In this document: positions 3,307-56,526 of the stretch, in pieces
Layout: each line of letters starts with the position of its first letter
Position numbering within the stretch: the first letter of the stretch is position 1
Assembly (NCBI RefSeq): GCF_032854445.1
Contig: NW_027017954.1
Span: 682,001-746,000 of the forward strand
Length of the DNA stretch: 64,000 bases
Origin: Liolophura sinensis
Lineage: Eukaryota; Mollusca; Polyplacophora; Chitonida; Chitonidae
Direction: 5' to 3'
Translations under genes and position numbers: made by a program
The notes under the pieces: generated by a model
What the model was told of the DNA's origin: nothing
The model's input: the letters and a program-made list of their open reading frames with translations, nothing else
Databases searched by the model: none

Positions 3307-3479
3307 AAGAAGACGCCCCCTGGTGAACAACTGGTGTCTGTGAGATGACTTTTAAAAAGACAGTTTTAAACATGACCATCTTGATTATTATTCTGCCAAA
3401 TTTCTGACTTCTGTCTTCAATAAGAAAAAAGTTGTGCCGTCCTAAAACTAAATATTAAAATCTCTAAAATACGGGTGTT

Positions 3480-35500: not shown

Positions 35501-38500
35501 TGTTTCAAATAGTTCTTAGATAAGGTATTCTATCAGCCCATTTGTATGAGCTGCGTCACTCCTGATTCAGGCCATTCCTACATCAAAGGTAACATAACTT
35601 GAAATATATGGATCACAACTTCTATGTATTGAGTGAGCCACGTTTCGGTATAGGGACTAATACACTTATCAAGCTTAATGACCGGCATTAGTACCTATAC
35701 CGAAACGTTGCTCACTGAATCGGCAGAAGTTGTGATCCATATATTTGTTATATTATCCAGTTCAACTTCTAAATGTCATTGAATGAAGTCTTACATCAAA
35801 GGTGACGTCGTTTTCACATAAGTATTTGAACATCTAGTTGATAATATTGGAATGACGAATTGGCTTGAACAATGAAATTAAGTCAAATGATAAGCAAACT
35901 TCAATGGGAGTCTTCTTTCGTTGTCCTTACTATTTTGGTTGTATTGAGTTAATGAATATTTAAAATTGTATAATGAATTCAAAGTATACACCAATGATGA
36001 GAGTATTTTCCAGTACGTTGTGCCTCAGTCCACGTGTCCTCCGTCATTGGTTTGCGTTTTAGATAAAGTGCAAACAGTACTGGCCGAGCGAAGGCTGTAC
36101 GCGGTTTGGTGTCATTGAGGTTACCCTGCTTGACGAGGAGGTATATGCGAATTGCGCAATTAGAACACTGGAGCTAAGTCACACAAAGGTAGGTCTGATC
36201 AATGTCATTGGTACACTCATTGAACTGCACAATTAGAACACTGGAGAGGAGTCACACTGAAAGAGATCCTATCGACATTATCGGTACACTCATTGAACTA
36301 CACAATTAGAGCACTGGAGCGGAGTCACACTAAGAGAGATCTGATCGACATTATCGCTACATTCATAGAACTACACAATTAGAACACTGCGGCTGACTCA
36401 CATCGGAACTAGCTGTACACTTATAGAACTACGCAATTAGAGCAGCAAGGCTAAGCTGCACTCAGGTAGTTGTGATCGACACAGTAGGTACACTTATAGA
36501 ATGACACACTTAGAACACCGGTAGTGGCTCACACTGAGGTAAGTGGGATCGACAGTATCTGTACACTTGTAGACCTACGCAGTTAGAACACCGAGGGAAG
36601 AAGGTGGAACCCACGTTGACACTAGCTGTACACTAGATCAGTGGTGCTCAGTCACATCGACACTATAGGAGTACACTGACAGAACTGCACAATTAGAACA
36701 CTGGTGCTGAGTCACAATAGGGTAGGTCTGATCGACACTATCTGAACAATTAGAGTTAGAAAAGAGGTGCGCAGTCACATCTGCACTATAACAGTACACT
36801 GAGAGAACTGCACAATTAGAACACTGGTGCTGAGTCACACTAAGGTACACATAGGTCTGGTCGACACTATTAGAGAATTAGATCAGCGGTGCTCAGTCAC
36901 ATCGACACTATAGGAGAACACTGACAGAACTGCACAATTAGAACACTGGTGCTGAGTCACACTAGGGTAGGTCTGATCGACACCATCTGAACAATTAGAG
37001 AATTAGATCAGTGGTGCTCAGTTACATCGACTCTATAGGAGCACACTGACAGAACTGCACAATTAGAACATTGGTGCTGAGTCACACTAAGGTAGGTCTG
37101 ATCGACACTATTTGTACTTTTATAGAATTACACAAATGCAACACTGGTACTTACATGTAGTAATATCGACACAAGCTGTACACTAACTGTACACTTAGAG
37201 CACTAGAGCCGAATAACAAGGTAGGTGACCACACATCACTTTCTAGTATTCCCGTCATCGTTTGCTCGCATGTATCCCTGTATACCCTTTGTAACTTTGC
37301 ACATGTAAGAAAGTGTTCAAAATACTTGTACATATAGTTCATTATTGCATGATTACCCTCAATTCTCAATTTCTGTCCAAAATGTCTGTAGGTTATTTAT
37401 TTATTTATTTATTTGATTGGTGTTTTAAAGCGTACTCAAGAATATTTCACTTATACGACGTCGGTCAGCATTATGATGGGAGGAAACCCAGGACCATCCG
37501 CAGGTTACTGGAAGACCTCCCCACATATGGCCGGAGAGGAAGCCAGCATAAGCTGGACTTGGTAGAGGGGATTAGCACGCTAGCGCGGCGCAATGACCTA
37601 AGGCCCTTTCACCAATACGGTCGCTGTGAGTACAAGTCCGTCTCTTTGCTGGCTTCCTCTCCGGTCGTACATGGGAAGGTCTGCAGCAACATGTGAATGG
37701 TCGTGGGTATCGTCCTGGCTCTGTCCGGTTTCCTTCCACCATAATTCTGGCTGCCGTCGTTTAAGTGAAATTTTCTTGAGTACGACGTAAACTACCAATC
37801 AAATAAATAAATAGATTCTTCCAACATGCCCAAAGTTTCCCTAAAATGTAATTGTAACATATGTACAATATATTGGTATTATAACACAATCAAAGACGAG
37901 GATACAAGATGAGAATCTGCCTATAAGATGAGCAAATTCTGTTGGCTATTGGTTTATGCTTTCCTTACCACCATTACTTGTGTCACGCATCTGATCGGAA
38001 AATCTCCTCAGGTGAAAAACAAGACGAAGATTCTCAAACAGTTTCACTTCTCGGCTTGGCCAGATCACGGGGCACCTTCCGATGCCACAATTCTGCTTGA
38101 CTTTCGAGATAAGGTTCTGGAGTACAACTCGACTTTACCTGGACCAATTCTTGTCCATTGCAGGTAGGCGTGGGAACAAACAATCCAGATCAACCTAGAG
38201 AGAAACATTTTGAAATGCAATGCTAGTTCTGAAATAAACACCACTTTTGAGTTCTTCATTTGAATCAAACATTTTATACTTTTGCACTAATCACGCAGAT
38301 TACGTATGAAATATAAATTAACCATTTTTGAAAAACAAATGATCGAGAGTGTATAGGAAATCTAACACCTTCATTCTTTGTTTCTTAAAATCGCTAAGAG
38401 TAGAATATCTCATAAGTACATATGGCAAAAGTGTGCAGGATCTGTGAAAAGTCATAATGATGTGCACTAATTCCACTTAAAAATAATCCATTATATTTCA

Positions 38501-41500
38501 GATTCGCGATAACTTTTAAACTAGGATGCAAGTAAATTGAATATTGATTAAGTTTCCGCGTCTAGAATAATGTCTTGTCTTTCTAGCATCAATGATGCCT
38601 GTTTTCATGGCCCCGTGTTAATTCCTTTCTCTATATACGCATTCTTCTTATTTACGAGGGAGGGGGGATGCTCCGTGGCTCAGTGGCTCAGTTGGTTAGC
38701 GGGATAACGCAGCGTAATGACCCAGTAGTCTCTCACCAATGCGGTCGCTGTGAGTTCAAGTCCAACTCATGCTGATATCCTCGCCGGCCGTAAGTGTGAA
38801 GGTCTTGAAGCAACTTGCGGATGGTCGTGAGTTTCCACCCACCATAATGCTGACCGCCGTCGTATGAGTGAAATATTCTTGAGTACGGCGTAAAACACCA
38901 ATGGAATAAACAAATATTATTTTCGGGAGGGAACGAATTAAACTTTCTTTTGCAAATTGATCTTGCGCTTGTGGACGTCGATTATGGTTGAAAATTGGCA
39001 TGAAAATGTTTGCTTTCCAAAAGAACAGCACATGCGCAGTTGATATTAATCCTGACGTGATTCAAGACACGTTCTGTGTTAGATCGGGATTGATAGCACC
39101 CAGACTTCGTTTAAAACCTATGTCCATGTGGTTGTAAAATATAGCACTGCATGGCATGACTTCAACGGTGTCAGTTCTTTAGTTGAATTGTGGTAGCTAC
39201 CGGCGACATTGTCTCTCAAAAGGCACAGCCAAGTCTTTAAATCTTTTTTAAGGTAAACCTTCAAAGTGCGCATGCCGGTTATTAAAGAAGCGATCTTGTC
39301 AAGAATTGGGATATCTCTTGTGGAGTACTTTTTGCCTTATGATTTTACTCTACCTGTTGTACGCATGCGTGTCTTGGATCAGTGCTGGGATTGGACGCAC
39401 GGGAACGTTCATAGCTCTGGATTACCTGATCAATCAGGCTAAAGAAGAGAATGTGGTGAATGTGCCGGCCTGTGTGATGATTCTGAGACAGCAGCGGGTC
39501 AACATGGTGCAGACACAGGTACAATTAGCCATAAAAAGACTGCAGAGCTGCTTTGGAAATTCCAATCTCCTCTGAGTGTACAGATATACCATAGGAGACG
39601 TAATTGTGTAATATAATTAAGACATACAGCATAGAGAGAAAAAACAGAGCAGCGAAGACAGTGTGATGCATGTAGCTGACAAATGGTCAGACGTATCCGA
39701 TGACATGTGACTTTTTGTCAATTTACCTGAGTTAGGGTATGTTCCCACACCACGGGAATGTTTTCTGAAGGCAATATCTGATCGCACTTAGGTCAAACTT
39801 TTTCTACCTTGCACATTATCTGTTATCATGATACTACTTTTCTTCACATCACTTGTTAAAGCTGAAACAAGCATTGTGCATATGTCATCGAAACGGTATT
39901 TACCTGCAAACATTACTTTTATTGAATGACAAGATAGAAAATAAAAACAATGCGTGATCATCTCATTGTGCCAAATGTATGATGGAATAAAACTGAATGA
40001 CAAGTACTCATAAGATATAACATTTGGTTACATGAATTTTGATCTGACGGGTTTATTCCGCAAGATGATTTAACATTATGCATTGCAGGAAAGTTCTGCT
40101 AAATTATAAAAAAAATTTGCCCTTATGTTAACCAGGAACAGTACGAGTTTCTACACTCAGCCCTGGGAGAAGCCTTGAAATTCAGCGACAGTTCAATTCC
40201 ATTTGTGAACTTTGCCACCGTGTACTCTGACCTTTGCACTGTCGACCCCGAGACCGGACAGTCCAAGATGGTCGCACAGTTTGAGGTCTGTTGCGAAAAT
40301 AGAATAAGAAATATTTGCAAACTGTTGAGGCTACTAGAATTCTAAATTTACTGTCATTCATGCCTCCGCTCCCACCATAATGCTGGCCCCCATGGTATAA
40401 GTGAAATATTCTTCAGTACGGCGTAAAACAGCAATCAAATAAATATATAAATAAATTAAGCCACCTTCTTATATAAAGTGAAATATTCGTGAATATGGCG
40501 TAAAACTGTAGTCAAGCAAATAGATAAATGATGGGAATTACGTGGTACATTACACAGCTAGTCTATTCATAGCTACTGTGGGTCTGTGATGATGTTGTTC
40601 TGACCGACATTCGTTTACAAAGCGTTGAAATCAAATAGAACATTTTAAAATGGAAGTTATCGCCGTCCGTTTTAGGTCCTCCGGGAACTCTCACAAACCG
40701 CGAACAAGATGCACGTGAAATCAGCCAGACATCCTGACAATATTTCCAAGAACAGATACTCCAAATTTTTAGCCCGTAAGTTTTTTGTGACAAAGCCTTA
40801 TTTCATCGACAATTGAGCTACACTCTCAACACACCTAACAGGGTTTGTATGTCGATATCAACTTCTGATTTAATAATGTGTTAGACACCTTTTCCGTGTG
40901 CCCTCTAAACATCGTTGTAAAGTATGTGAAAACTCATAGCTCATCTCGCTGTTCAGCAGCGTATACCGTTAAGGTATCGTTATCAGAGAGGTCAATCTGC
41001 AAATCTGCCTTATTTCATCGACAATTGAGCTACACTCTCAACACACCTAACAGGGTTTGTATGTCGATATCAACTTCTGATTTCATAATGTGTTAGACAC
41101 CGTATCCATGTGCCCTCTAAACATCGTTGTAAAGTATGTGAAAACTCATAGCTCATCTCGCTATTCAGCAGCGTATACGTTAAAGTATCGTTATCAGAGA
41201 GGTCAATCTGCAAAGTAATGACTTGTTCAACTCCCAGACAGTAATAACCGAACACTTTTAAAATAGTTAAATACATATAATAAAATAGTCTAGTCTTAGA
41301 CTAAATAGTACAACATGTATATAACATATAAAACAATGTAGGTAACAACAAAATATAGATTCCTTTGGAGATTAGAGCAGACACAACACCTTTCCAAATA
41401 CACACAATCTCAATAGGAAGTCTCAGCATATAGAGGTAAATCCACTGATCCTCGTGAATTCCTAGAGTGAAAGATAACACTGACATCCAGATGACAATCA

Positions 41501-44500
41501 GCCGTACTCAAGGCACAATGACAAATGGTTGGTATGCAACCTTCTTATCAGTCACAGACTCTACACTTGATTATTGATTAGCGGAAATGCCTCAAATTTA
41601 TATACATTGACAGTGAGCATCCAGAAAGGTGGCTCGCCTTAAATGTGCTCGAGAGCAGGGTCGGCGTTCCCCGGTAAAGAGCTCAAACACTTACCTGGTT
41701 AGCATCAAGCCCTTGTACCTTCTCACTTCACATCATTCTTTTTCGTCAGTTGGTGCCATTAAGGACTATTTTCTATCCCTGTATTCAGAGTGTTACAACA
41801 TTATCCCCACGTCGTTCGTAGTTCTGTCTTTGGAATTTATGAAGTCTAAGCCTCATGAACAGTCAGGTACGTGAAGGAAAGCTGTAAACTGCGTAATATG
41901 TGTTGCAAATAACACGTTGCTGCAGCACAGCAGCTTCGTTGGAGTAAACCAGTGATTCTTGTATTTCAGTTGATAGCTGCAGGCCATACTTGTCCACGCC
42001 AGTGTCCGGCTCTAACGACTACATCAATGCTGTATATCTTCCGGTAAGGTCTTCGTCGGGACCCTACAATGTGGTTTGTATGTTCAAAAGTGGAAAGGTA
42101 ATATGAACTGCAAGGGACTCCACAAAGGTATGAATACGGTACACTAAGTTAAAATTGAAACCGGTGTATTAATCCTTTCCAGCGGCACATAGGAGACCAC
42201 ATATATTATGATTCCTTCACATGACAGATGAGATGAGATGTCAATATCATTAGTCTTAGTCTTTTCATATTAATTAATTATTAACAACGTATGCATTTAT
42301 TTCGTCGTTATATAACGTCATATTCATTGGAGTGTCCGTTGTAAACCATCAACCCTTGACAGCTGCCGACGGACTTGCCAACTATATATATGTACAAGAT
42401 ATTGTTGGGAGACAAGTGTTCTTCGTCGACTGTTAGGCCATTTATTGTCCCTAGGCTCCTACAAATTGCGGGGGTCGGGATTTGATCCACACGCACACTT
42501 GTGTAGCATGCATATCAAGGCCTATGTAAGGCCTGATTCCATTAATCACATGAACCTAGGATTTATTCCATTGCCTCCACGACACTATACTCTATTTCAC
42601 AAATACAACCTAACTCAAATATATAAAACTGTTATAGAATATCACATATCCTAGCGAATTAAAAGCGAGCATCTTCTGCGCTCGGACATACCCCGCTTCC
42701 CACTGAGCATTTGATACTTAGATCTGTTTTATGCAAGTTTTAATTAGCAGCCTTGTTGATGTATATGAAGTCCGCAATAATCACACCAAGATCTTGCCCA
42801 GGGATCACGAAGCGATCTTAGATTTAAGTCAAGATTTCGAATCACTTTAATGTTGCTATTTGTAATGTAAGAAGATCCAAATATTGCTTGACAACTTAAA
42901 TTCTCGGTCAGTTATTGTGAAATAAATTTCAATTAATGTAATGGAAAGAAACGTACCAAATTTAATTTTTAAAATTTTGACCTGAGTCTGAGATAGCTTC
43001 GTGATAGCTTCCAGAGGTCCTTAAATAGTGATTTATATCTTTATGTATTTGATTGGTGTTTTACACCGTACTCAACAATATTTCATTTATACGACTGCGT
43101 CCAGCATTATGATGGGAGGAAGCCGTGCAGAGCCCGGGGGAAACCCAATACCATCTGCAGGTTGCTGACAAAAGTATTGATGTGGCTGCCTGGAAACGCG
43201 TACATGAATGAGTGAATGATAATGGCTTAAGGCATATCGCTAATATATCAGCCATATTGTGGCGAACGTGCAGAGGTTTGAACTGGATAACTGTATTCGC
43301 TCGTGTAGTCACCCTAGCAGGAAGTGAAGCAACATTTCGGAAAACAGTCGATTACTATCTTCCCAGGAGTGTACCGAACATGTACAATGCCAAGAGTCCT
43401 AAGAGTGTTAAACTCCTGAACTGTCGATAATTGTAAATATCCATCCATATTTCATCAAGTTCAAGTTCCACTTATTTCAAATTCACGAAATGGCCTCTGC
43501 CTTCAGTCTGTTGCCAGGATTATCTGCAGATGTTACAGATATTACAGATGTTTTTAGTAACTTTGGTGCAATGAAAAGGATGTTTTTTATTGTAGGGATA
43601 CAAACAGAAGAGGGGTTTTATCCTAACTCAGACTCCTCTACCCAACACGGTCGTGGATTTCTGGCGTCTGGTCTATGATCACAAAGTCAGTACCATCATC
43701 ATGCTGGACCGCGTGAAAACAGGGGATAAGGTAGGTAGTGTGTCAAATTGACCAGATCATGGGAGACGGGGAGATACAAGGCTGTGCAAATGCAAATAAT
43801 GGAAAAAACAGAGGATTGGGTGGGTCGTCTATCACATTGACCTCTTGTTCTGTTAATGAAAGACTTCCAAAAACAGGGGATAAGGTAGGTAGTCTGTCTC
43901 ACTGAACACTTGTGCCCATAACGGTATGCCCCGAGTTGCTACCAGTTGCTCCTAGTTGCTTCCAGTTGCCAAAAACCCAGTTGTTCCCAGTCGCAAGGTC
44001 GACATACGCCCGGCTTAAGTCGTCTCACTGAAACTGCACCAGGAGCGGTGGAAATCTGTGCTTCAACAAGGAGGCACATTACACGCACATGCACTCTAAG
44101 GACTCCTCCGTCGTCATATGACTGAAAAATTGTTAAGTAGGACGTTAAATCCCTTTGCACTCACTCACTCACTCACTCACTCACTCACTCACTCTAAACA
44201 AGAGATAAGTAAGTAATGTGTCACACTGAAAGTTGTGCAGATAGTTTCAAACTGAAAACAGGGAATAAGGTAGGTAATGTGTCACATTGAAAGTTGTGCA
44301 CATTATGGAAGGCCCCCAAGAGAGAAGATAAGTAGGTAATGTGTCACATTGAAAGTTGTGCAGATAAAGGACACCCAAAACAGGGAAAAGGTTGGTAGTG
44401 TGTCAAATTGACCAGATACGCAGATCATGGGTCACGGGGAACACAAGACTGTGCAAATGCAAATAATGGAAAAAACAGAGGATTGGGTAAGTCGTCTGTC

Positions 44501-47500
44501 ACATTGACCTATTGTTCTGTTAATGGAAGACCTCCCAAAACAGGGGATAAGGTAGGTAGTCTGTCACACTGACCGCTTGTTCACTTAATAGAATACCCCA
44601 TAACAGGGGATAAGGTAGGTAGTTTGTCTCACCGACCACTTGTGCCCATAACGGTATGCCCCGAGTTGCTACCACTTGCTCCTAGTTGCTTCCAGTTGCC
44701 AAAAACCCAGTTGTTCCCAGTCGCAAGGTCGACATACGCCCGGCTTAAGTCGTCTCACTGAAACTGCACCAGATAAAGGAGCGGTGGAAATCCGTACTTC
44801 AACAAGGAGGCACATTACATGTACATGCACTCTTCTCCGTCGTCATATGACTGAAAAATTGTTCAGTACGACGTTAAACCCCATTGCACTCACTCACCCA
44901 CTCTAAACAAGAGATAAGTAAGTAATGTGTCACATTGAAAGTTGTGCACATTATGGAAGGCCCCCAAAACAGAAGATAACTAGGTAATGTGTCACATTGA
45001 AAGTTGTGCAGATAAAGGAAGCCCAAAACAGGGAATAAGGTAGGTAATGTGTCACAATGAAAGTTGTGCACATTATTGATAGCTCGCAAAACAGGAGATA
45101 AATAGGTAATCTGTCACAATGAAAGTTGTCCAGGCGATAGACCCCAACAGAGGGGATGAGGTGCATACATATAGGTAGTCTGTCACATTGACCACAAAGT
45201 GTTGCATAAAATGCTGAGAATATTATAAGCGTGTGACTATCTAGAATTACAAGGCAGCGAAAAATGCGCGCGGCAAACTGTTGTTTGGTTTATTATACAT
45301 TCAATAACAGTTCAGTCTGTCAAACACCCGAGGTGTTCACTCAACTGAACCCTAACATCAGGACATTTCAGATTGCTTAGCCTCTAATATTTCCAGTGCC
45401 ATAGTGGTAATAAGCGCTATTTGGAATTAGTTCGAGATCAGTTGGATTTCCCAAATTTGGCACACCTAAGGCTGTCTCTGTACTTCATATTTTATGCTTG
45501 AGTGAGAAAGTATTCACTCCGGGTACCCAAGTTTCTCCCACCCATAAAACCGTTCCCCTGATACAATTGTACATTGGTGTAAAACTCCTGGCCCCAGGAT
45601 CACGAACCGATCGTAGACTTAATTCAAAATTTTAATCATTATATTTGGTATGTTCCTTTCCATTATTTTAGCTGTTATTTCTTTTACAATAACTTACCCA
45701 TAATTTACGTTGTCAAGCAATAGTTTGTCCTTGGTACGTAGGAAATACAAATTTTAAAGTGATTTGAACATTTGACTTAAATCTAGGATCGCTTAATGAA
45801 TCCGTGGCCAGTAATAATCTGCAGATTACATCATGCAATAAAAAGTGAAATATACAATACATAAATTTATTATACTTTATTTTCTTGCACACAGAATGTT
45901 GGGGTGTATTGGACAGATAAGAAGGAAACGTTTAACCCGTTCGAGGTGGAGGTGACAGATGTTGACCAGAGAGTGGAATTCTCCACTTGGACTTACGAAC
46001 TGAGCCACAAAGACAAGGTAAAGCCCTTCTATACAGTTCAGTATGTCAAACAAAGGCAATTATTTCTGAGTACTTTAATTCAGAGATGAAAAGAAAATGT
46101 CTTTTATTTTAGTGGTATATTAGTTGCTATTTTTCATGACTGAAAGTTCATATTCTGGATCTGGGCATCAGAACTGATATTCCAACATCACCCCCAAACA
46201 AAATGGTGGTTACCGATCAACAACCTTAAAACCTATTCCAAAAGAACCCTCAACACAGTCCACAAAGTCTTTGTCCATGTATTAAGTCCGACATTTGGAC
46301 GGGTTCATGAAAATGGAAGCATATAACGGTTTTCAACGCCAGTGTTCAAGCCCGAACTGAACGTCTCCGTTGAACTAAGTGCACGATCTTCACGTACATA
46401 CTGTACTGTACAAATGTTTGAAAAAATCAGTTTATACGCGTGCGACATTTTGAAATTACCAAAACAAACAAAAAGAAGAAACAAAACCGGGGCCTCTGTG
46501 GCCGTGGAAGTTAGCGCGCCAGCACGGCGCATTGATTCAGAAGCCTCTCTCCAATTCGGTCGCTGTGAGTTCAAGTCCAGCCCATCCTGGCTTCATATCT
46601 GGAGGAACGTGGGAAGGTCTGCCAACATTCAGCGGTTGTTCGTGGGTTTTCCCCGGCTTCTGTCCCGTTTCCTCCCACCATCGTATTGTGAAATATTCTT
46701 GAGTACGGCGCAAAATGCCAAGCAAATAAATAAATCAAACAAAACAAAAGTGCTGGTGGTGCACATCTAACTGTAATAACACCTTTATTTAAAGAAAGAA
46801 GAATGTCCCATGTCTTGTCACAAGCAGCGACGCATGCACATAACTCGCCCAAGAACAGGAAGAATACTAACTTTTAACAACAGCTTGAACACACTTCACC
46901 AACACAAATGCGCGTTGCAGCTCAAAATAAAGAATAGAAATTGATCATCCCCATGCAAAAAATTTTGTCGATTTTTACTTTCGGTCACAGGGCAAATTTG
47001 GGCTAGACATTATGGACTGATCACATCAGAATAAAAAGTGAACCCTTCATAAGAATGTCTCATAATGTAACCAAGAAAATTAGTTCATAACAACACATAT
47101 AAAACATGACCAATCACCACAACCTTTAAACCAGTGGGATGTTATAACCCTATACAAAAAAGAATTCTAAAATCACAGCACAGCAACGCTGTGGTTAAAT
47201 TCAAAATCGATTCTTTTCTTTGTCGAGCGCTTTTAAATCTTTTGGTCCTAGTTTTTTTAAAAATACGCGTAAAATCTAAATAATATCTCTTCATGTTCAA
47301 TATGTAGCGAAACTACGACTATCAGCCTATAGTGTAGCAGCTGTTGGACGTTGGACGAAATGGACGATCAGGGTCAATAATCGCATGGCCCATTCCCAAA
47401 AGGACACAAACACAAATCACCAAAAAACTAAGAAAGTATATATAATATACCAAAATAGGGCGCAATCATGCAAAGAAAAGCAGTCAGCAGTTTCCAACGA

Positions 47501-50017
47501 TCATGGAAAGACGAAACGAGTTTCACTAGCAAAGAGGTCATTCAAAACACAAGAACCTAGCGCTAGATCACGCCAGATGTGGATTAAATCTCATTCACCG
47601 ACAGGGATTTTCCCGAAATGTCATTCTTTATTTGTTTATTTATATGATTGGTGTTTTACGCCGTACCCAAGAATATTTCACTTATACGACGGCGGCCAGT
47701 ATTATGGTGGTAGGAAACCGGGCAGAGCCCAGGGGAAACCCACGATAAAGAATGGTACAGATATAAGTCCGATCAGTGGTGTCATGTTAGTACAGGAATA
47801 ATTGTGTCTATAATTCATTATAATTGATGTTATTATGTTCATAATAAAAATAATGCATAAGACACGGATAGAGACTCAGCCCAGGCTGATCTTCCGTGAG
47901 ACTCTCGGTGGGAAAGGAAGTAATACAGAATGGTGATAAATCTAAGCTATGTTTGTTGCAAACCAAACAAGTAAGGTAATACATTATGCATTTCACACGG
48001 CAAGTTATTCAAATGATAAACTATTCACACGGATATGAAAACACTATTCAAAAGGGCAAAAGGTAAAATGACTTGTACCTATATAAGTGGTATGTATGAC
48101 AAATTACAGCTGACTGGCATGACTGAAGCAGTGAGCACAGGATAGTGGGAGGAGACCATTACTGACTCCTCCCTGCACTCACTGCATAAAGAAACCTGCG
48201 TTGTACATCACAAGAGGGAAACTGTATTTTACACATCCTAAATGCAGAGTCTTCCTGAGCGTTCTACATTATCCTGATGAATACTGTAAATTTTATTTAT
48301 GATCGAATTTGATGAATATTTCCAGAAAGCACCTCAGCCCATCAAACAATTCCGCTGCCCATTTTTCACGAGTGAACCAACACTGAAGACTATACCAACG
48401 CTTTTGACTGTACTGCAGAGTGTTGACATGTGGCGAGATAAGGCTGGCGACGGACCAGTACTGGTTCATTGCAGGTTAGCTATGCATTACTCATATATGA
48501 TGTGTGTCAAAAGAGTTCTTCTATGGCAGACAACTGCCCGCTGCCATTGTACTTTCTCTTGCATGCGAAATTATACATTCTCACTCCAGAGAAATATAGC
48601 GGGTTTTTGTTTTTTATAAGGCAAAAAAGCCTCAGGATTTTTGCTCATATAATATTAAAATGTAAATAATGCTTAGTATTTGTTGAAAACGAGGTCTCCA
48701 TATAAAATGTAACAAAGCCAAAATCAGATTTTGGGAAAATAAGCTTATGTAAACAAAATAACCGTATGTAGACAGAAGCAGTTTATACTCTGAGACATTG
48801 GGCCGTCTGCATACGGCTGTCCTGGTTACCTATGCAATCATAAGGTCTTAAATTATGTTTATCTCACTTTTGATATTGGTTTGATTGGGAATGTAAACTT
48901 TGTCCTTAAAGGGTGGCCTGTTTGTAGCATTCGAAGTTTTTAATATTTTAAGTGATTTACAATGATTCATACATTTTACTATTACAAAATGATCGTTAAG
49001 AACAAAGAATGTAGCATATTTCTAAAAGCGAATCAGCGCAGATACAGAAACAAATTAGACAAAACTGATAAACTCAGCTGTGAAAGGCCACCCTACTTGT
49101 ATGTAAGCCACCAAACCTAACGAAAAGATGAGGAAATTAGCCGTAAATTAATGTCATATGTATAATATAAATTATACGATCATGTGGTGAGTGCGCATTA
49201 CTTGCTTTTAAGATTGATGATGAAGAAATACAGGCTTACGTGTACAATTAAAATAATATATGCCCCGATTGTACCCAGGGATGGCGTGACAAAGAGTGGG
49301 TTATTCTGCGTGGTTTGGACTGTGCTAGAAAGACTGAAGGTTGACCAGAACGTCAATATCCTACAGACTGTCAAGCAGATGAGGAACAACAGACCGGAGA
49401 TTATAACAGATGTGGTATGATTACTTATAACATTATTAAACAGATAACTATATCAGTGTCATTTTCGTATAAAGCATATGAGTGATAGTCTTTCTTTTAA
49501 TGATGTACTAATGCTGGTACCATTGCTAAACGTGGACCTCTAAATGGACAACAGTACTTCTAATTATCAAATAAAAATAACACAAATATAATTATGCCCT
49601 TACGCGTATGAGTCTATTTCAATGCTCAGTGACTTCTGGAGAAAGACAAGGACCATGCTTCGACTGATTAATGTCTTCATGCTACATATGGTGTAGATGC
49701 ATTTAGAATTTGAGTGTCAAAAAATCAGAAACTCATGTGCTTCAAACCTTATGCTTGTCATTTACCACCTGTTTTCTTTAGACTTTACCCTATTTTAGGG
49801 TCATCTTGCTTACCATTTGCCATCTGTCATTTTTTTTTCGCCCTCATCTACCCCATTTATGGTCAGATTGCTTACCATTTATCATATGTCTTTTTCATCC
49901 TTTACCCTTTTATAGGGTCAGCTTAACTTCATCCACCAGGTCGTCATGGGATATCTGGACAACTTCCAAACCTACGCTAATTTCAGACCAATGACAACAG
50001 TTTTGGAGGCGATGTAA
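8451..50017 (+). CDS. Receptor-type protein tyrosine phosphatase with EGF-like and F5/8C (fucolectin-like) ectodomain
   Basis: This is a gene-level model of a single-pass membrane phosphatase. From N to C it reads: signal peptide; EGF-like; F5/8C/fucolectin-like; five or six EGF-like modules; one transmembrane helix; juxtamembrane segment; PTP D1 with SRYKNL, WPDHG, HCSAGIGRTG and the Q-loop (MVQTQ); PTP D2 with CRDGVTKSG in place of the active-site loop; stop at 50015-50017. Exons: 8451-8505, 15634-15768, 16148-16357, 17222-17428, 18930-19025, 20943-21092, 23107-23250, 24504-24650, 25744-25890, (26877-27028 doubtful), 30268-30358, 31944-32047, 32396-32550, 32955-33042, 33673-33749, 34511-34547, 35342-35439, 36063-36188, 38012-38163, 39383-39518, 40136-40285, 40676-40775, 41970-42043, 43596-43730, 45895-46017, 48326-48474, 49279-49414, 49916-50017. 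Leaving out the doubtful exon, splice phases agree throughout and lengths sum to 3324 bp including the stop. Dephosphorylation of phosphotyrosine at the inner membrane face is known for the family; the ligand is unknown. Exon 1 is the least certain. Confidence 0.88.
8718..8800 (-). mobile_element. SINE family 1, tail fragment
   Basis: This is the minus-strand A-rich tail and 3' body (ttatttatttgattggtgtt to cagcattagggtgggagg); the rest is absent. It lies just inside the first intron. Confidence 0.7.
8801..11050. other. Intron 1, first part: no further features seen
   Basis: AT-rich sequence without recognisable coding, structural RNA or repeat signals apart from vague similarity of 9690-9770 to other dispersed sequence. 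It belongs to the proposed 7.1 kb first intron. Confidence 0.4.
11054..11210. repeat. 48-bp tandem repeat, about 3.3 copies
   Basis: The unit 'ggctttactctctatgctgt...cacacagtcgtcgctgctct' starts at 11055, 11103, 11151 and (partial, diverged) 11199, giving a 48-bp period with near-identical copies. Since 48 is divisible by three, it creates spurious repetitive ORFs. Single-copy relatives (gctctggttt...actctct) occur near 14312, 20712 and 55563, so the array grew from a dispersed sequence. Confidence 0.9.
11940..13045. repeat. Minisatellite of about 22 bp units with a 296-bp higher-order period
   Basis: The basic unit is roughly 'cccacagtaatagttacccaa', alternating with 'cgcagtaatcgttatcacaa' variants. 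On top of this, a block starting 'actcactgtaatcg' recurs at 12331, 12627 and 12923, an exact 296-bp spacing, and the first two blocks are nearly identical. The array lies in intron 1 of the RPTP gene. It has no spacers of constant length and no palindromic repeat, so it is not a CRISPR-like structure. Confidence 0.95.
13130..13870. repeat. Low-copy duplicated segment, partner at about 58230-58775
   Basis: The two segments share 'tgatattttctcattttnaa', 'cagggaacta', then 'cttgaact', 'gaaataagctgt', 'ggcaactta' and 'ggctatttggt' in the same order and orientation. The first copy is interrupted by a SINE at 13470-13680 that the second lacks. The partner lies at a comparable place before the second RPTP-like gene, which supports tandem duplication of the locus. 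Confidence 0.7.
13470..13680 (-). mobile_element. SINE family 1, minus strand, head truncated
   Basis: Tail, body and the B-box region (gagctggacttgaacccacagc, reverse complement of the head) are present; the A-box end is missing. It is inserted in the duplicated segment 13130-13870. Confidence 0.85.
14985..15121 (+). mobile_element. SINE family 1, 5'-truncated copy
   Basis: Body from 'ctggcagcaacaggtggat' through the tail 'gtaaaacaccaatcaaac(aaat)n'. Confidence 0.8.
15360..15580. repeat. Second copy of the 7418-7665 segment
   Basis: It shares ordered blocks with 7418-7665 ('tcctgtgttcgagacaatg', 'catgtagtaaca', 'cgtactttagg') and ends about 50 bp before the first EGF exon. Confidence 0.6.
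15634..15768 (+). CDS. RPTP exon 2: EGF-like module
   Basis: It has an acceptor tttcag and a donor gc|gtaagt and is phase 1-1, 45 codons. It reads VCPGSTYGPDCKYDCHC and ends GWDGPTCQR, the cysteine spacing and aromatic-Gly pattern of MEGF/laminin-type EGF repeats. The split codon joins it to the next exon as R followed by NVALGKP. Confidence 0.85.
16022..16076 (-). mobile_element. SINE family 1 tail fragment
   Basis: Minus-strand tail and end of body (gatttattttattggagtttt, tacttatacgacggcaaccag), 72 bp before the F5/8C exon. Confidence 0.6.
16148..16357 (+). CDS. RPTP exon 3: F5/8C (fucolectin-like) domain, first half
   Basis: It reads NVALGKPTNQSSNFSRHTSE, then LAVDG and SWRVTLGAVYWINNFTIYNR. 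This is the classic N-terminal half of the galactose-binding-fold domain of fucolectins, with 'VALGKPTxQSS', 'AVDG' and 'W.V.LG....I....IYNR'. Phase 1-1, 70 codons, acceptor cttatag, donor t|gtaagt. Known family members bind sugars or phospholipids on the cell surface; the ligand here is unknown. Confidence 0.9.
17222..17428 (+). CDS. RPTP exon 4: F5/8C domain, second half
   Basis: It reads RRLSGFTLHVGNS, CYKDTTPI, then VTEHCTGGPVSGDTVMITSR and LTLCEVLIYG. The closing 'L.LCEV.IYG' strand is diagnostic of this domain. Phase 1-1, 69 codons. Decayed partial copies follow at 17610-17735 and possibly 18195-18235. Confidence 0.9.
17610..17735 (+). pseudogene. Decayed partial copy of RPTP exon 4
   Basis: Two blocks of exon 4 are recognisable in order: a 'gtgggaaactcctcccaggc'-like piece and a 'gtcaggagac...gtca.gata.catcac' piece followed by 'ctaacattttgt'. 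Frame is lost and part of the exon is deleted. It marks a past tandem duplication within the F5/8C region. Confidence 0.65.
17822..17998 (+). mobile_element. SINE-like family 2 copy with (CACT)n tail
   Basis: Family 2 reads 'tggtgttcantatgaagggnat...', 'gacccgtat', 'cttacttnccttc', 'cgtcgtcatatgactgaaaa', then 'gtacgacgttaaacccca' and a CACT repeat. This copy has most of that order and ends in the CACT tail. Related copies are at 18543-18842, 34790-35010, 43997-44195, 44725-44905 and (minus) 54796-55015. Confidence 0.8.
18543..18842 (+). mobile_element. SINE-like family 2, longest copy
   Basis: This is the fullest copy, with an extra 5' part 'ccgcttcgggagcggtagag' and 'tgtaacttcctcgcttggtg', the central 'gaaatccgtcctgcaacaagg', and the 3' part 'catatgactgaaaaattgtt' plus a CACT-like tail. 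The mirror-image copy at 54796-55015 shares the same 5' part, so these likely define the element's 5' end. Confidence 0.8.
18930..19025 (+). CDS. RPTP exon 5: short EGF-like module
   Basis: It reads CSAGWYGEMCGRQCNTTTAC then CSKCDVTRTRC, and is phase 1-1, 32 codons, acceptor cctgacag, donor g|gtaaag. It carries the usual 'GWYG..C...C' start, but it is shorter than the other modules and may need exon 6 to complete a typical repeat. Confidence 0.8.
19030..20047. other. Intron 5: nothing recognised
   Basis: AT-rich intronic sequence. The open frames at 19611-19898 (plus) and 19682-19867 (minus) overlap each other and resemble nothing I recognise. Confidence 0.4.
20048..20185 (+). mobile_element. 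SINE family 1, 5'-truncated copy
   Basis: Body from 'cctgtggatggtcgtgggtt' through 'gagtacagtgtgaaacacaga'; the tail is diverged. Confidence 0.75.
20943..21092 (+). CDS. RPTP exon 6: EGF-like module
   Basis: It reads CVDGRWEKHCQKDCGHCWAD, CDKVTGECPL and CDAGFMRENCSTG, with eight well-spaced cysteines. Phase 1-1, 50 codons, acceptor tttctcag, donor cag|gtaagt. A decayed paralogue with a premature stop is at 55814. The donor region seeds the minisatellite that follows. Confidence 0.88.
21093..21540. repeat. Minisatellite seeded from the exon 6 donor junction
   Basis: Directly after exon 6, degraded copies of its last bases (ccaagatgtgatgctggct) plus the donor and intron start (gtaagtgtgtaggatttagt) recur about every 60-80 bp, with donor-like starts near 21093, 21174, 21240, 21312, 21377, 21439 and 21512. 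Several copies keep a usable-looking 'caggtaagtgtg' (for example near 21508). The decayed paralogue at 55.9-56.2 kb has the same array, so it predates that duplication. Confidence 0.85.
21541..23000. other. Intron 6: no gene recognised
   Basis: About 21640-21770 still echoes the preceding minisatellite ('tacaatgtaaagggatacatta'). The rest is unique AT-rich sequence. Confidence 0.4.
23107..23250 (+). CDS. RPTP exon 7: EGF-like module
   Basis: It reads CEAGTYGPDCNETCGSC, CNTTSGHC, and RCMPGYSGLKC. Phase 1-1, 48 codons, donor a|gtaagt. The open frame continues upstream through the polypyrimidine tract (encoding a misleading hydrophobic stretch from about 23070); the acceptor catcaag and phase argue for the exon start used here. 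Confidence 0.88.
23395..23593 (+). other. Recurring intronic ORF, copy 1 (function unknown)
   Basis: An open frame about 65 codons long reads MDCALYGAWSDVQVVPVESF, YTNTSVRVTAHMYTGN and HFCVLVYPVAGC, ending in TAA. A copy with the same frame open is at 56855-57053, a copy with an internal stop at 24800-25015, and a strongly diverged one at 26060-26235. Each follows an EGF exon by about 150-350 bp. It has no clear splice sites in the gene's phase, and I do not recognise the protein. It could be an exon remnant, or simply part of the duplicated block. Confidence 0.45.
24229..24377 (+). mobile_element. SINE family 1, 5'-truncated, inside duplicated EGF block
   Basis: Body from 'tcctctccggccgtacgtgg' to 'gagtacggtataaatgtcag'. 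It sits in the same position relative to exon 8 as the copy at 25439-25612 does to exon 9, so it inserted before that block was duplicated. Confidence 0.85.
24504..24650 (+). CDS. RPTP exon 8: EGF-like module (duplicate of exon 9)
   Basis: It reads CEAGKYGHDCNETCGSC, CNMTSGHC and RCMPGYSGLKCKT. Phase 1-1, 49 codons, acceptor gaattaag, donor cag|gtaaga. It differs from exon 9 at only about four or five of 147 positions. Confidence 0.87.
24800..25015 (+). other. Recurring intronic ORF, copy 2 (interrupted)
   Basis: Same sequence as 23395-23593, but with an internal TAA within the 'catatgtaagcaggg' segment and without the initial ATG. It is therefore decayed as a coding frame. Confidence 0.5.
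25439..25612 (+). mobile_element. SINE family 1, second copy in duplicated EGF block
   Basis: Body from 'cgtcctctccggccgtacgt' with the full tail 'gtaaaacaccaatgaaataaata'. It is positional partner of 24229-24377. Confidence 0.88.
25744..25890 (+). CDS. RPTP exon 9: EGF-like module (duplicate of exon 8)
   Basis: It reads CEAGKYGHDCNETCGSC, CNTTSGHCQGEPRCKPGYSG. Phase 1-1, 49 codons, donor cag|gtgaga. It starts 1240 bp after exon 8 with matching flanks and a shared SINE. Confidence 0.87.
26060..26235 (+). other. Recurring intronic ORF, copy 3 (diverged)
   Basis: Only the 'gattgtttttataccaacat', 'gttggccatatg' and 'atctcattact' blocks still match copies 1 and 4. The frame is no longer open across the whole segment. 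Confidence 0.35.
26240..26870. other. Intron 9, remainder: nothing recognised
   Basis: AT-rich intronic sequence without recognisable elements. Confidence 0.4.
26877..27028 (+). CDS. Possible RPTP EGF-like exon without a clear donor
   Basis: It has an acceptor cttcag and phase 1 start, then CDNGTYGLNCLETCGSC, CNTSSGLC and VCMPGYIKEKC, so it is an EGF-like module of the same type. No phase-1 donor of normal strength follows the last Cys; the frame runs on to a stop near 27118. A weak alternative is 'aatg|gttgtg' at 27077. The exon may be skipped (exon 9 joins the transmembrane exon in frame) or may be dying. Confidence 0.5.
27143..27340 (-). mobile_element. SINE family 1, minus strand
   Basis: Tail, body and part of the B-box region (catgagctggacttgaactc) are present; the A-box end is missing. 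Confidence 0.85.
27341..28954. other. Intron sequence: no gene recognised
   Basis: No recognisable coding, RNA or repeat signal between the SINE and the foldback element. Confidence 0.4.
28955..29497. mobile_element. Foldback-type MITE (family A), copy 1
   Basis: Imperfect terminal inverted repeats are visible (about 28957 'aaaggtacagaccgcatgaa' against the reverse complement of 'ttcggcggtatgtccttt' ending near 29493). Internally 'aggaactctgacgtcaca' at 29126 is inverted at 29269 as 'tgtgacgtcagagttcct'. A relative lies at 52722-53220. The mobility mechanism is not evident from the sequence. Confidence 0.7.
29978..30080 (-). mobile_element. SINE family 1, tail and partial body
   Basis: Minus-strand 'gatgttttacgccgtaccca', 'gaatatttcactcatacaac' and 'tggtgggatgaaaccagaca'; truncated about 190 bp upstream of the transmembrane exon. 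Confidence 0.8.
30268..30358 (+). CDS. RPTP exon 11: transmembrane segment
   Basis: It reads VPISNIDGVTGGVTGVLVAC followed by AVVVAVIIIYR, a single hydrophobic helix with a basic stop-transfer residue. The exon enters in phase 1 and leaves in phase 2 (tac ag|gtaatt). The equivalent exon of the second gene at 60163-60256 has the same phases. Confidence 0.87.
30360..31940. other. Intron 11: low-complexity tracts only
   Basis: A C homopolymer of about 20 bases lies near 30987-31006, followed by a short (CA)n run. The sequence at 30450-30520 resembles the 5' part of family 2 near 34790. No gene was seen. Confidence 0.5.
31944..32047 (+). CDS. RPTP exon 12: juxtamembrane region
   Basis: It begins by completing the split Arg codon and reads RRRHPSTSKAQAHDSLSVRT, a basic membrane-proximal stretch, then an acidic DVEDQQSN. 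Enters phase 2, leaves phase 1. Confidence 0.82.
32396..32550 (+). CDS. RPTP exon 13: juxtamembrane region and start of the PTP wedge
   Basis: It reads an acidic linker (EAEDPEVHVVPEDPEATTYE) and then VPVEEFWDYIQEKMAADGFK, the helical segment that precedes RPTP D1 domains. Phase 1 in, phase 0 out. Confidence 0.88.
32692..32808 (+). mobile_element. SINE family 1, 5'-truncated copy
   Basis: Diverged body and tail ('atgcggatggtcgaggaa', 'attatgctggtcgctgtc', 'accaatcaactaactaaatg'). Confidence 0.7.
32955..33042 (+). CDS. RPTP exon 14: PTP D1, start
   Basis: It reads LPYNKAKSRYKNLVA, the phosphotyrosine-recognition loop (usually NRYKN; here Ser replaces the Asn, with the Tyr kept). Phase 0 in, phase 1 out. 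Confidence 0.9.
33673..33749 (+). CDS. RPTP exon 15: PTP D1
   Basis: It reads DHSRVVLRLHG then SDYINACYID, two hallmark D1 motifs. Phase 1 in, phase 0 out. Confidence 0.92.
34511..34547 (+). CDS. RPTP exon 16: PTP D1 (37-bp microexon-sized)
   Basis: It reads GYNQPKKFIASQG, the 'GY..P..FIA.QGP' motif, completed by the next exon. Phase 0 in, phase 1 out. Confidence 0.9.
34790..35010 (+). mobile_element. SINE-like family 2, diverged copy
   Basis: It contains 'cccggtgtcagcataatgtg', a G homopolymer near 34845, and the family 3' end 'cgtcgtcatataactgaaaa' plus 'gtacgatgttaaacctca'. Confidence 0.7.
35342..35439 (+). CDS. RPTP exon 17: PTP D1
   Basis: It reads GPTDLIINDFMRMLWEQNVG and KIVMVTNLIEATK, the standard D1 core helix and strand. 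Phase 1 in, phase 0 out. Confidence 0.92.
35602..35747. repeat. Foldback hairpin, arms of about 60 bp
   Basis: The left arm 35602-35661 (gaaatatatggatcacaact to tttcggtatagg) pairs with the right arm 35687-35747 with a few mismatches and small offsets, leaving a loop of about 25 bases. It lies in the intron between exons 17 and 18. If transcribed, the pre-mRNA could form a long stem. Origin as a small foldback MITE is possible. Confidence 0.9.
36063..36188 (+). CDS. RPTP exon 18: PTP D1
   Basis: It reads KCKQYWPSEGCTRFGVIEVT and ANCAIRTLELSHTK, the 'C.QYWP' strand and the following 'IRTL.L'. Phase 0-0, 42 codons. Its 3' end and donor seed the following tandem array. Confidence 0.92.
36189..37235. 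repeat. Minisatellite seeded from the exon 18 donor junction
   Basis: Units contain copies of the last exon bases ('gcacaattagaacactgg...ctgagtcacac') joined to the donor and intron start ('aaggtaggtctgatcgac'). The motif 'cacaattagaacactgg' recurs near 36227, 36690, 36811, 36937 and 37063, giving a later period of about 120-126 bp. Donor-like copies (g)gtaggtctgatcgac occur near 36189, 36722, 36966 and 37091. Confidence 0.9.
37395..37562 (-). mobile_element. SINE family 1, minus-strand member of a head-to-head pair
   Basis: Tail, body and start of the head region, reading towards the left. It abuts the plus-strand copy at 37563, making an inverted pair. Confidence 0.9.
37563..37816 (+). mobile_element. 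SINE family 1, nearly full-length, plus-strand member of a head-to-head pair
   Basis: Contains the head from 'gcacgctagcgcggcgcaat', the B-box region 'gtcgctgtgagtacaagtcc', the body and the tail 'accaatcaaataaataaata'. Confidence 0.92.
38012..38163 (+). CDS. RPTP exon 19: PTP D1, WPD loop and start of the P-loop
   Basis: It reads ILKQFHFSAWPDHGAPSD (the catalytic general-acid Asp is in WPD) and ends GPILVHC plus two bases of the next codon. Phase 0 in, phase 2 out. The split codon completes HCS across the intron. Confidence 0.95.
38668..38925 (+). mobile_element. SINE family 1, full-length copy
   Basis: The complete order is present: A-box-like 'gtggctcagttggttagcg', B-box-like 'gctgtgagttcaagtccaa', body, and the tail 'gtaaaacaccaatggaataa'. 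It has a small duplication at the 5' end (gtggctcagtggctcag). Confidence 0.93.
39383..39518 (+). CDS. RPTP exon 20: PTP D1 active-site loop
   Basis: Joined to exon 19 it gives HCSAGIGRTGTF, the catalytic C-x5-R-T/S signature with the nucleophilic Cys and the phosphate-binding Arg both intact. It continues VPACVMILRQQRVNMVQTQ, which includes the Q-loop start. Phase 2 in, phase 0 out. D1 is predicted to be an active tyrosine phosphatase. Confidence 0.95.
40136..40285 (+). CDS. RPTP exon 21: end of PTP D1 and interdomain linker
   Basis: It reads EQYEFLHSALGEALKFSD, completing the Q-loop 'QTQ.QY.F', then the linker to D2. Phase 0-0, 50 codons. Confidence 0.92.
40365..40457 (+). mobile_element. 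SINE family 1, tail fragment
   Basis: 'cccaccataatgctggcccc' to 'aatcaaataaatatataaat'. A second, more diverged tail-like piece follows at about 40472-40530. Confidence 0.75.
40676..40775 (+). CDS. RPTP exon 22: PTP D2, start
   Basis: It reads VLRELSQTANKMHVKSARHP and SKNRYSKFLA, the D2 counterpart of the NRYKN loop. Phase 0 in, phase 1 out. Confidence 0.88.
40795..41218. repeat. Recent 212-bp tandem duplication (two copies)
   Basis: A segment starting 'gccttatttcatcgacaatt' at 40795 is repeated from 41007, with only a few differences (for example 'taccgttaaggt' against 'tacgttaaagt'). It is intronic, just after exon 22. Near identity implies a young event. Confidence 0.92.
41970..42043 (+). 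CDS. RPTP exon 23: PTP D2
   Basis: It reads DSCRPYLSTPVSGSNDYINA then VYLP, the 'DYINA.Y' motif of D2. Phase 1 in, phase 0 out. Confidence 0.88.
42795..43007. mobile_element. Small MITE (family B), copy 1
   Basis: Terminal inverted repeats pair 'gggatcacgaagcgatctta' at 42800 with the reverse complement of 'gatagcttcgtgatag' ending near 43007. The interior matches, in inverted orientation, the element at 45589-45810. Confidence 0.75.
43038..43170 (-). mobile_element. SINE family 1, minus strand, 5'-truncated
   Basis: 'gattggtgttttacaccgta' through 'cagagcccgggggaaaccca' and 'gcaggttgctgac'. The head is missing. Confidence 0.85.
43596..43730 (+). CDS. RPTP exon 24: PTP D2
   Basis: It reads GYKQKRGFILTQTPLPNTVV, DFWRLVYDH and STIIMLDRVKTGDK, matching the D2 'GY.....FI.TQ.PL..TV.DFWR' block. 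Phase 0-0, 45 codons. Its last codons and donor seed the following array. Confidence 0.93.
43997..44195 (+). mobile_element. SINE-like family 2, inside the exon 24 array
   Basis: Contains 'gaaactgcaccaggagcggt', 'gtcgtcatatgactgaaaaa' and a (CACT)n tail of about nine units to 44194. Confidence 0.85.
44725..44905 (+). mobile_element. SINE-like family 2, duplicated along with the array
   Basis: Nearly identical to 43997-44195 including upstream flank, so it was copied with the array rather than inserted separately. The CACT tail is much shorter here. Confidence 0.85.
45589..45810. mobile_element. Small MITE (family B), copy 2
   Basis: Left end 'ggccccaggatcacgaaccg' pairs with the reverse complement of the right end 'ggatcgcttaatgaatccgt'. 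About 220 bp long with AT-rich interior. Confidence 0.8.
45895..46017 (+). CDS. RPTP exon 25: PTP D2
   Basis: It reads VGVYWTDKKETFNPFEVEVT and FSTWTYELSHKDK, the D2 strand region equivalent to 'QYWP......G.F.VE'. Phase 0-0, 41 codons. Confidence 0.9.
46492..46738 (+). mobile_element. SINE family 1, nearly full-length
   Basis: Head 'gttagcgcgccagcacggcg', B-box-like 'cgctgtgagttcaagtccag', body with a small deletion before 'catcgtattgtgaaatattc', and tail 'caagcaaataaataaatcaa'. Confidence 0.9.
47395..47515. repeat. Dispersed repeat related to 5680-5770
   Basis: Shared ordered pieces 'aaaactaag(a)aagtatata', 'caatcat-', 'aaagaaaagc', 'gtcagcagtttcca'. Type unknown. Confidence 0.45.
47630..47748 (-). 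mobile_element. SINE family 1, minus strand, 5'-truncated
   Basis: 'gattggtgttttacgccgta' to 'cagagcccaggggaaaccca'. Sequence is close to the family consensus, so it is probably young. Confidence 0.88.
48326..48474 (+). CDS. RPTP exon 26: PTP D2, degenerate WPD-loop region
   Basis: It reads KAPQPIKQFRCPFFTSEPTL where an active domain would carry a W-P-D loop; no such motif or acid residue is present. It ends GDGPVLVHC plus two bases. Phase 0 in, phase 2 out. Confidence 0.92.
49279..49414 (+). CDS. RPTP exon 27: PTP D2 pseudo-active-site loop
   Basis: Joined to exon 26 it gives HCRDGVTKSGLFC. The Cys is kept, but Lys stands where the catalytic Arg of C-x5-R should be. Together with the lost WPD loop this predicts an inactive regulatory D2. 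Phase 2 in, phase 0 out. Confidence 0.93.
49795..49915. repeat. Short array seeded from the acceptor of the last exon
   Basis: The true acceptor and exon start 'tatag|ggtcagctt' is preceded by two altered copies, 'ttttagggtcatcttgctta' at about 49793 and 'ttatggtcagattgctta' at about 49857, separated by repeated 'ccatttgccatctgtc'-type pyrimidine-rich sequence. Spacing is about 55-62 bp. Confidence 0.75.
49916..50017 (+). CDS. RPTP exon 28: end of PTP D2 and stop
   Basis: It reads GQLNFIHQVVMGYLDNFQTY then ANFRPMTTVLEAM and a TAA stop at 50015-50017. 'F..QV...YL..F.TYANF' is the canonical C-terminus of RPTP D2 domains. Confidence 0.93.
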   Translation, partial: GQLNFIHQVVMGYLDNFQTYANFRPMTTVLEAM

Positions 50018-50249: not shown

Positions 50250-50640
50250 GGTAGGGGTTTAGGACGTGAAGTTTGTGTTGTAACTGTTGTGAAAATGCGT
50301 TCAAATCATGACTATTGTGTGCTTATTGGTTTAAATATGCTTTGTTCTTGTAACGGTCATTTAGATGATTAAGTTTTTGATTTAATGATGCGGTTTCTAG
50401 GTCATGATGATAGTGCTATGTTTGGTGTATATTTTGTTTTATTGATTTAGTAATACGCTTTTTAGGTCATGATCATAGTGTTTTGATTGGTGTAAGTTTT
50501 GGTTTTCAGATCATGATAATAGTGCGGTGATTGGTGTAAATTACGTTTTTAGGTCGTGATGACTGTGCTGTTGATAAAGTCATGATAATAGTTATGTTAT
50601 TGGTGTAAATTTACGGTTTATAGGTCATTATTTATGCTTA
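50250..50640. repeat. Imperfect tandem repeat in the RPTP 3' flank
   Basis: Units of roughly 60-75 bp contain 'ttaggtcatgatnatagtg' and 'ttggtgtaaattt'. The array resumes in a related form at about 51660-51790 and 52090-52450 with SINEs in between. Confidence 0.75.
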
Positions 50641-52089: not shown

Positions 52090-52450
52090 ACGGTTTTAGG
52101 CTATGCTGTTCTATTGTTATTGGAATACAAGGCACAGTTTTGTGGTCATCTTTATTGTTGTATAGATACAAATACGGTTTGTGACCATGGTTATTGCTTT
52201 GTTATTGCTATACAGGTGCGGGATTTAGGTCATATTGATAATGTTTTGTTATTGCTGTCAAGGTGCAGGATTTTGGGTATGGTTATTGTTTTGTTATTTA
52301 CTGTACAGGTGTGGGATTTTGGTCATATTGATAGTGTTTTGTTATTGCTGTCAAGGTTCAGGATTTAGGTCATGGTTATTGCTTTGTTATTGCTGTGCAG
52401 GATTTAGGTCATGTTGACTGTATTTGTTATTGCTTTAAAGGTGCCTTTTT
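52090..52450. repeat. Imperfect tandem repeat, about 55-bp unit
   Basis: 'ttattgctgtcaaggtgcag', 'ggatttaggtcatattgat' and 'gttttgttattgctgt' recur about five times. Confidence 0.8.
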
Positions 52451-56215: not shown

Positions 56216-56526
56216 AAAGGGATACATTATCCTGAAATACAGGACCTCCAAATGCGTTAATTAATGTGAAAGACAGCACATGACTAAATGTATTTGGGAG
56301 ATGCATTAGGTTTTTGGCTGAGACAGTTAGCACATCCTTTAAGTGATTGGATGTTGAGTTTACAGCTTTACGCTCCAATATGTCTCAAGGGGTATACTTA
56401 CCAAGTGGTGAAGTCCAAATCTTTTTTGCCTTGTACATGCTCTTGTGTCAAAGTACAACATATAAATGTCACTTTTTGTTTGTTAACAGATCGCCTATTC
56501 TTTGACACAGGAGACAACTTATAATA
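56216..56526. other. Intron-derived sequence of the decayed RPTP copy
   Basis: 'atgtctcaaggggtatactt' and 'ccaagtggtgaagtccaaat' match 22927 onward before exon 7, showing that the duplicated block extends through here. Confidence 0.7.

Follow-up and report, generated by a model that had tools for sequence, protein, structure and literature searches.

Probable mirage-type minisatellites, likely agents of intron growth, at three exon-donor junctions of a receptor-type tyrosine phosphatase gene from Liolophura sinensis

Tandem repeats that span exon-intron boundaries are known from amphioxus, where they are called mirages; they are reported to be unstable in length, between haplotypes or somatically, and to leave regular splicing undisturbed (PMC3087553). 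They have been described in Adh3 and in the globin genes BflGb6 and BflGb9, to which a paper on lancelet PGBD5 added TnC and PGBD5 (PMC3902484). Many of their units, albeit not all, carry AG/GT, and the unit lengths reported range from 10 to 160 bp (PMC3087553, PMC3902484). Internal tandem repeats at exon-intron boundaries are also found in human duplicated genes, where they are reported to modify exons or create introns (PMC2812944), and in human IFI6 (6-16) downstream units of a minisatellite reportedly serve as splice donors, giving isoforms (PMC4526556). The present study concerns a window of 64,000 nucleotides of DNA from the chiton Liolophura sinensis (contig NW_027017954.1, positions 682,001 to 746,000), which carries a gene for a receptor-type tyrosine phosphatase (RPTP) on its + strand. 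Three arrays of tandem repeats in this gene, referred to as A, B and C, start within the ends of exons 18, 23 and 5, respectively. All positions are those of the window, and all features described lie on the + strand.

The arrays are likely to be minisatellites of the mirage type, by which introns have grown from the 5' side; they probably have no function, and their decoy donors are presumably skipped as a rule. Like amphioxus mirages, their units span an authentic exon-intron boundary, with edges that lie 40 nt (exon 18), 15 nt (exon 23) and 49 nt (exon 5) before the donor, and a splice signal is kept in many but not all units, a strong donor being present in 6 of 16 in array A. On these two features, boundary-spanning units and partial retention of AG/GT, arrays A, B and C fit the mirage kind. 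They differ from those of amphioxus, which are reported at both kinds of boundary, in that three occur in one gene, all at donors, and in that one is shared with a duplicated neighbour. The kind itself is already known; three at the donors of one gene is unusual. No mollusc mirage is present among the matches listed in open-licence PMC text. If, as the assembly record has it, the host is not a lancelet, mirages would reach another animal group. The repeats at boundaries in human duplicated genes are likewise minisatellites, the difference being that here the coding exon has been kept.

Exons were modelled from conserved segments with AG/GT boundaries, and their numbers are those of this analysis; the number of exon 18 agrees with that in an earlier note on this DNA, which had proposed a minisatellite of an exon end plus its splice donor at this exon, in the first phosphatase domain (D1) of an RPTP. 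Tandem Repeats Finder (TRF), blastn and Pfam agree with that proposal. Exon 18 (36063-36188, 42 codons) is placed by the Pfam match of the joined D1 exons and by alignment through the exon 18/19 join, and ends at the authentic donor AAG/GTAGGT (36189-36194; U1 pairing -9.8 kcal/mol). Array A (36149-37235; delimited by TRF, a repeat search and blastn, with the right end set by manual slicing) consists of recurring copies of the exon's final 40 nt together with about 33 nt of intron. A 34-nt piece was listed by the repeat search in 15 copies, two of them overlapping, the first of which (36150-36183) lies within exon 18. In blastn, the copies of the exon end start at query base 21, which is 40 nt upstream of the donor. 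Compared with the authentic copy, the repeats have a mean identity of 0.12-0.29 upstream of this edge and of 0.69-0.94 inside the exonic 40 nt (four 10-nt bins in each case, over nine copies in clear register out of 16 intronic units; these nine, like the unit slices of arrays A and B, were chosen by eye). Since identity is near chance on one side of a sharp left edge and high on the other, the repeat unit of array A consists of the tail of an exon with its donor. When the 40-nt end of exon 18 is compared with intron 18 it scores 55, and none of 100 dinucleotide shuffles goes beyond 26, so that a chance origin of the similarity is excluded. Unit similarity thus does reach into exon 18, as the earlier note required, although the exonic piece is 40 nt long and not the approximately 30 bases it had given.

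The first units of array A have a period of 73 nt, and later ones form a 125-nt pair repeat. TRF, a program of the kind that the earlier note had suggested for this region, recovered two stretches: 36157-36389, with 3.2 copies of period 73 and 83% matches, and 36634-37130, with period 125 and 82% matches, the latter also described at 36634-37094 with a period of 245 and 91% matches. Mirages are described as having homogenised inner units, with edge units excluded; in array A the TRF match percentages are 91% for the inner 245-nt repeat and 83% for the first 73-nt units.

Each unit had been expected to carry a decoy 5' splice site. With a strong decoy defined as a GT in a site that matches the consensus at 7 or more of 9 positions, just six of the 16 intronic units (manual slicing) keep one, with U1 pairing of -7.8 to -10.2 kcal/mol, and the other ten have lost it by substitution or through a junction gap of some 15 nt. 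The first two are CAG/GTAGTT (36466-36471; -7.8) and GAG/GTAAGT (36539-36544; -10.2, a slightly stronger pairing than that of the real donor). AGG/GTAGGT then occurs twice, at 36722-36727 and 36967-36972 (-9.2 each). AAG/GTAGGT, the 9-mer of the real donor, is found at 37092-37097 and again in the last unit, at 37221-37226 (-9.8 each). The decoys noted earlier near 36722, 36966 and 37091 are thus present, and are joined by three more, after 36465, 36538 and 37220. All six exceed the U1 pairing of the median donor (about -7, 24 donors examined).

Use of a decoy had been thought to lengthen the protein by repeated or frame-shifted segments in the middle of D1. Translation in the frame of exon 18 excludes this on the present sequence: a TAG at 36234-36236, in the first intronic copy and 15 codons beyond the real donor, lies upstream of every strong decoy. 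It arises from the copied AATTAGAAC, which is read one base out of step because the 73-nt unit is not a multiple of three. Two strong decoys (after 37091 and 37220) do lie at a multiple-of-three distance from the real donor, as longer isoforms with extra D1 segments would need, but with the TAG ahead of both such isoforms are scarcely to be expected. The WPD loop and the catalytic cysteine are encoded in exon 19 (38012-38163, a modelled exon running from the WPD loop to the catalytic His-Cys by alignment relative to solved structures). As all six strong decoys are downstream of the TAG, use of any of them in intron 18 would be predicted to truncate D1 before both. The locus resembles IFI6 in having a minisatellite that supplies several splice donors, and differs in that isoforms are reported for IFI6, whereas any strong decoy here would meet a premature stop. 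In arrays B and C too, in-frame stops (43749 and 21137, 6 and 15 codons past the respective donors) come ahead of the strong decoys.

A stop placed in this way might itself be put to use, if some transcripts were spliced at decoys, gained a premature stop and decayed, so that array length tuned the level of the phosphatase. Intron 18 (1,823 nt) and intron 23 (2,164 nt) each hold six strong decoys with U1 pairing of -7.5 or better, against five in 21,823 nt of 21 other examined introns, and in both decoy-rich introns an in-frame stop lies upstream of them all; these observations speak for such 'poison' splicing. However, the stop in array A follows from the frame-shifting length of its unit, and ten of the 16 units have no strong decoy. 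Moreover, intron 5 has a single strong decoy in 2,014 nt despite its array, the short, array-free intron 14 (630 nt) holds two of the five counted elsewhere, and in amphioxus regular splicing is reportedly left undisturbed by mirages (PMC3087553). Regulated poison splicing is accordingly regarded as improbable.

The retention of the nine donor-site bases was compared with that of the rest of the unit. In array A (16 units) it is 0.50-0.81 per base, which is somewhat lower than in the exonic part of the unit (mean 0.73) and higher than in the remaining intronic part (0.48); in array B (14 units) it is 0.64-1.00, compared with 0.82 and 0.60. These figures are descriptive, the units being related to one another, and suggest that the decoys are under neither strong purging nor clear maintenance. 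They also bear on the idea that decoys, left uncut, draw U1 to the intron behind exon 18 and thereby strengthen recognition of the exon. Sites complementary to U1 are indeed dense after exons 18 and 23, and array B has kept its donor bases well. Those of array A, however, show no excess retention over exonic bases, and the authentic donors of both exons outpair the median donor (-9.8 vs about -7) and so hardly need help, which makes a role as auxiliary U1 sites very unlikely.

The finding of the earlier note mentioned neither array B nor array C, both of which emerge from a comparison of exon ends with introns across the gene. For 24 donors, the final 40 nt of the exon were compared with the intron that follows, and for 24 acceptors, the initial 40 nt of the exon with the intron before it, with 100 shuffles in each test; over these 48 tests chance alone would yield about half a case. 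Three of the 24 donors scored above all 100 shuffles: those of exon 5 (33 vs 24), exon 18 (55 vs 26, as above) and exon 23 (30 vs 23). Among the 24 acceptors none was convincing; exon 15 alone exceeded its shuffles (20 vs 19), by way of a 10-nt exonic match lying off the junction. Three of 24 donors against none or one of 24 acceptors is too few to prove an asymmetry. For exon 3, blastn finds the junction with intron 3 copied once, 782 nt further on, at 18210-18238 (29 nt, 86%, E 1.6e-4); this is perhaps a relic of an exon copy. As a single copy scoring below its shuffles (26 vs 27), it was not counted as a further array.

Array B (43716-45194; TRF, blastn) repeats the last 15 nt of exon 23 together with intron and is interrupted by other sequence; it contains six strong decoys. 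Exon 23 (43596-43730, a modelled exon within the Pfam match of the joined exons of the second phosphatase domain, D2) ends in AAG/GTAGGT, and most of its copies begin at or near position -15 relative to the donor. A similar insert is found twice within the array, at 43925-44200 and 44650-44905 (by eye; the TRF rows starting at 43934 and 44664 share a consensus), so part of array B was probably duplicated after an insertion. Array C (21044-21532; TRF, blastn) repeats the last 49 nt of exon 5 (20943-21092, a modelled exon, cysteine-rich and EGF-like by eye, with no Pfam match) plus intron, and has one perfect decoy, CAG/GTAAGT, after 21511; most of the blastn copies of exon 5 begin at -49. No cross-match was found when the three junctions of exons 5, 18 and 23 were compared by blastn with each other's arrays.

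A copy of array C lies in a neighbouring duplicate gene (55903-56220, exon end 55962), identified by collinearity and having the same left edge in blastn; 20709-21335 and 55565-56212 are collinear, with 83% identity over 652 columns. Since the array is present in both duplicates, it is older than the duplication and was inherited by the neighbouring gene.

TRF gives four loci with a period of 30 or more within the gene (15634-50020), and three of them are parts of arrays that begin within the tail of an exon. Under random placement, with 24 tails of 50 nt making up 3.5% of the gene, the probability of at least three of four arrays doing so is 1.7e-4, and of at least two of three, with array A left out, 3.6e-3. 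Both values are post hoc; for arrays B and C the starts used are blastn edges, both TRF starts being inside the intron, and inclusion of shorter periods would weaken them. That one gene has three separate starts (four loci with the inherited duplicate), none of them clearly at an acceptor, is the pattern to be expected if exon-donor junctions were preferred seeds of tandem duplication in this genome, for instance through a tie to transcription or to the donor sequence, with introns lengthening time and again at the 5' end as the tail of the exon before them is copied. That they are such seeds, and that introns rich in decoys may in addition adjust expression by way of unproductive splicing, is a speculative and rather unlikely extension of the mirage interpretation.

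The comparison of D1 with D2, which covers introns 18 and 23, bears on whether the arrays created introns or enlarged them. In the alignment of the two domains, the donor of intron 23, which contains array B, coincides exactly with that of intron 17. For intron 18, which contains array A, the donor falls two alignment columns from that of intron 24, beside a gap of uncertain place, and both lie between codons. The position of intron 23 is thus common to both phosphatase domains, and very probably that of intron 18 is too. When the 40-nt tails of their exons were compared with their own introns in the shuffle test, the partner introns 17 and 24 gave no exon-end copies. As counterparts free of such copies stand at matching positions, introns 18 and 23 are probably older than their arrays, which points to growth and not gain. 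The earlier note had seen here a living example of intron gain and growth; growth of intron 18 by about 1 kb is supported, and gain is made unlikely by an intron of D2 that has the same phase and lies no more than two residues away. The Rogers model, in which introns are gained by tandem duplication of an AGGT site (described in PMC4974935), has in its favour that the array repeats an AG/GT junction and that the donors of introns 18 and 24 are two columns apart and do not match exactly. It calls for an intron where there was none before. The intron of array B, at exactly the position of intron 17 of D1, is not such a case, and intron 18, within two residues of intron 24 of D2, is by extension probably not one either, so that intron gain by this route is held to be most unlikely. 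Array A resembles ATP2A1 and potato RdRp (PMC4974935) in being a tandem duplication that includes splice-site sequence, and differs in that here probably no new intron arose and an old one grew.

The following course of events is proposed. A short tandem duplication took place across the exon 18/intron 18 junction, taking in the 40 nt of exon and about 33 nt of intron that are bounded by the sharp left edge. Unequal exchange or slippage would then have multiplied copies within the intron, as the higher-order 125- and 245-nt repeats suggest. The most upstream copy stayed coding and retained the authentic donor, while later copies would have become intronic decoys, normally skipped, decaying at about the same pace as the rest of the unit. 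Were a decoy used, the TAG of the first copy would end the frame, and the mRNA would be expected to become a substrate for nonsense-mediated decay and not to encode a longer protein. Separate starts of the same kind, with repeats unrelated in sequence, would have occurred at exons 5 and 23. The presumed outcome is a lengthening of introns at their 5' ends, probably functionless.

Several points weigh against this account. The T of the donor is retained in 14 of 14 units of array B, which could hint at maintenance. Competition with the real donor is plausible, because the U1 pairing of the array A decoys (-7.8 to -10.2) lies near that of the real donor (-9.8), and the decoys are only presumed to be silent. 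Three arrays in one gene exceed random placement, which a purely accidental origin leaves unexplained. Finally, the argument from age carries less weight for array A than it does for B, the match between introns 18 and 24 being two columns off.

With several near-equal decoys just 3' of a real donor, the locus amounts to a natural experiment on donor choice by the spliceosome. Three arrays in one gene, with counterpart introns free of arrays, also offer a system in which seeding at donors and the lengthening of old introns can be tested, and their recurrence within one gene merits a genome-wide count.

The comparisons took in 24 donors and 24 acceptors of the modelled gene; the model leaves out the donors of two exons (9 and 11) and a further, probable exon of D2 that would lie between 40285 and 41970. 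When joined, the D1 and D2 exons each give a Pfam Y_phosphatase match (E 3.7e-77 and 6.4e-48, respectively). The best solved relatives of D1 are the receptor phosphatases alpha and S. Built with the 36188/38012 join, D1 aligns across the exon 18/19 junction with a one-residue gap to PTPRS (4bpc) and a three-residue gap to PTPRA (6uzt). Upstream exons are EGF-like or discoidin-like in appearance (by eye); a Pfam scan of three joined EGF-like exons gave no match.

Other repeats are present in and around the gene. Intron 17 contains a large inverted repeat (35590-35755) which by eye resembles a short inverted-repeat element, and intron 21, in D2, contains a 212-nt tandem duplicate (40795-41214; 96% matches in TRF) that shows no apparent relation to exon ends. 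A dispersed repeat occurs on both strands in 13 places (e.g. 37432-37460 and 47663-47691), counted as a 29-mer with at most three mismatches, for which 0 are expected. Its sequence suggests a mollusc or another spiralian, and an exact 29-mer of a dispersed repeat gave no match in two contig collections of bacterial, archaeal and viral sequence. Past the RPTP stop codon lie degenerate tandem arrays at 50377-50506 and 52186-52444, the unit of the one near 52 kb including AAGGTGCAGG. Upstream of the gene, reading frames at 2177-3307 resemble a transposase of the Tc1/mariner type (by eye), and TRF finds tandem arrays at 11048-11222 (48-nt unit, 3.6 copies) and 11938-13049 (units of 22, 43 and 296 nt).
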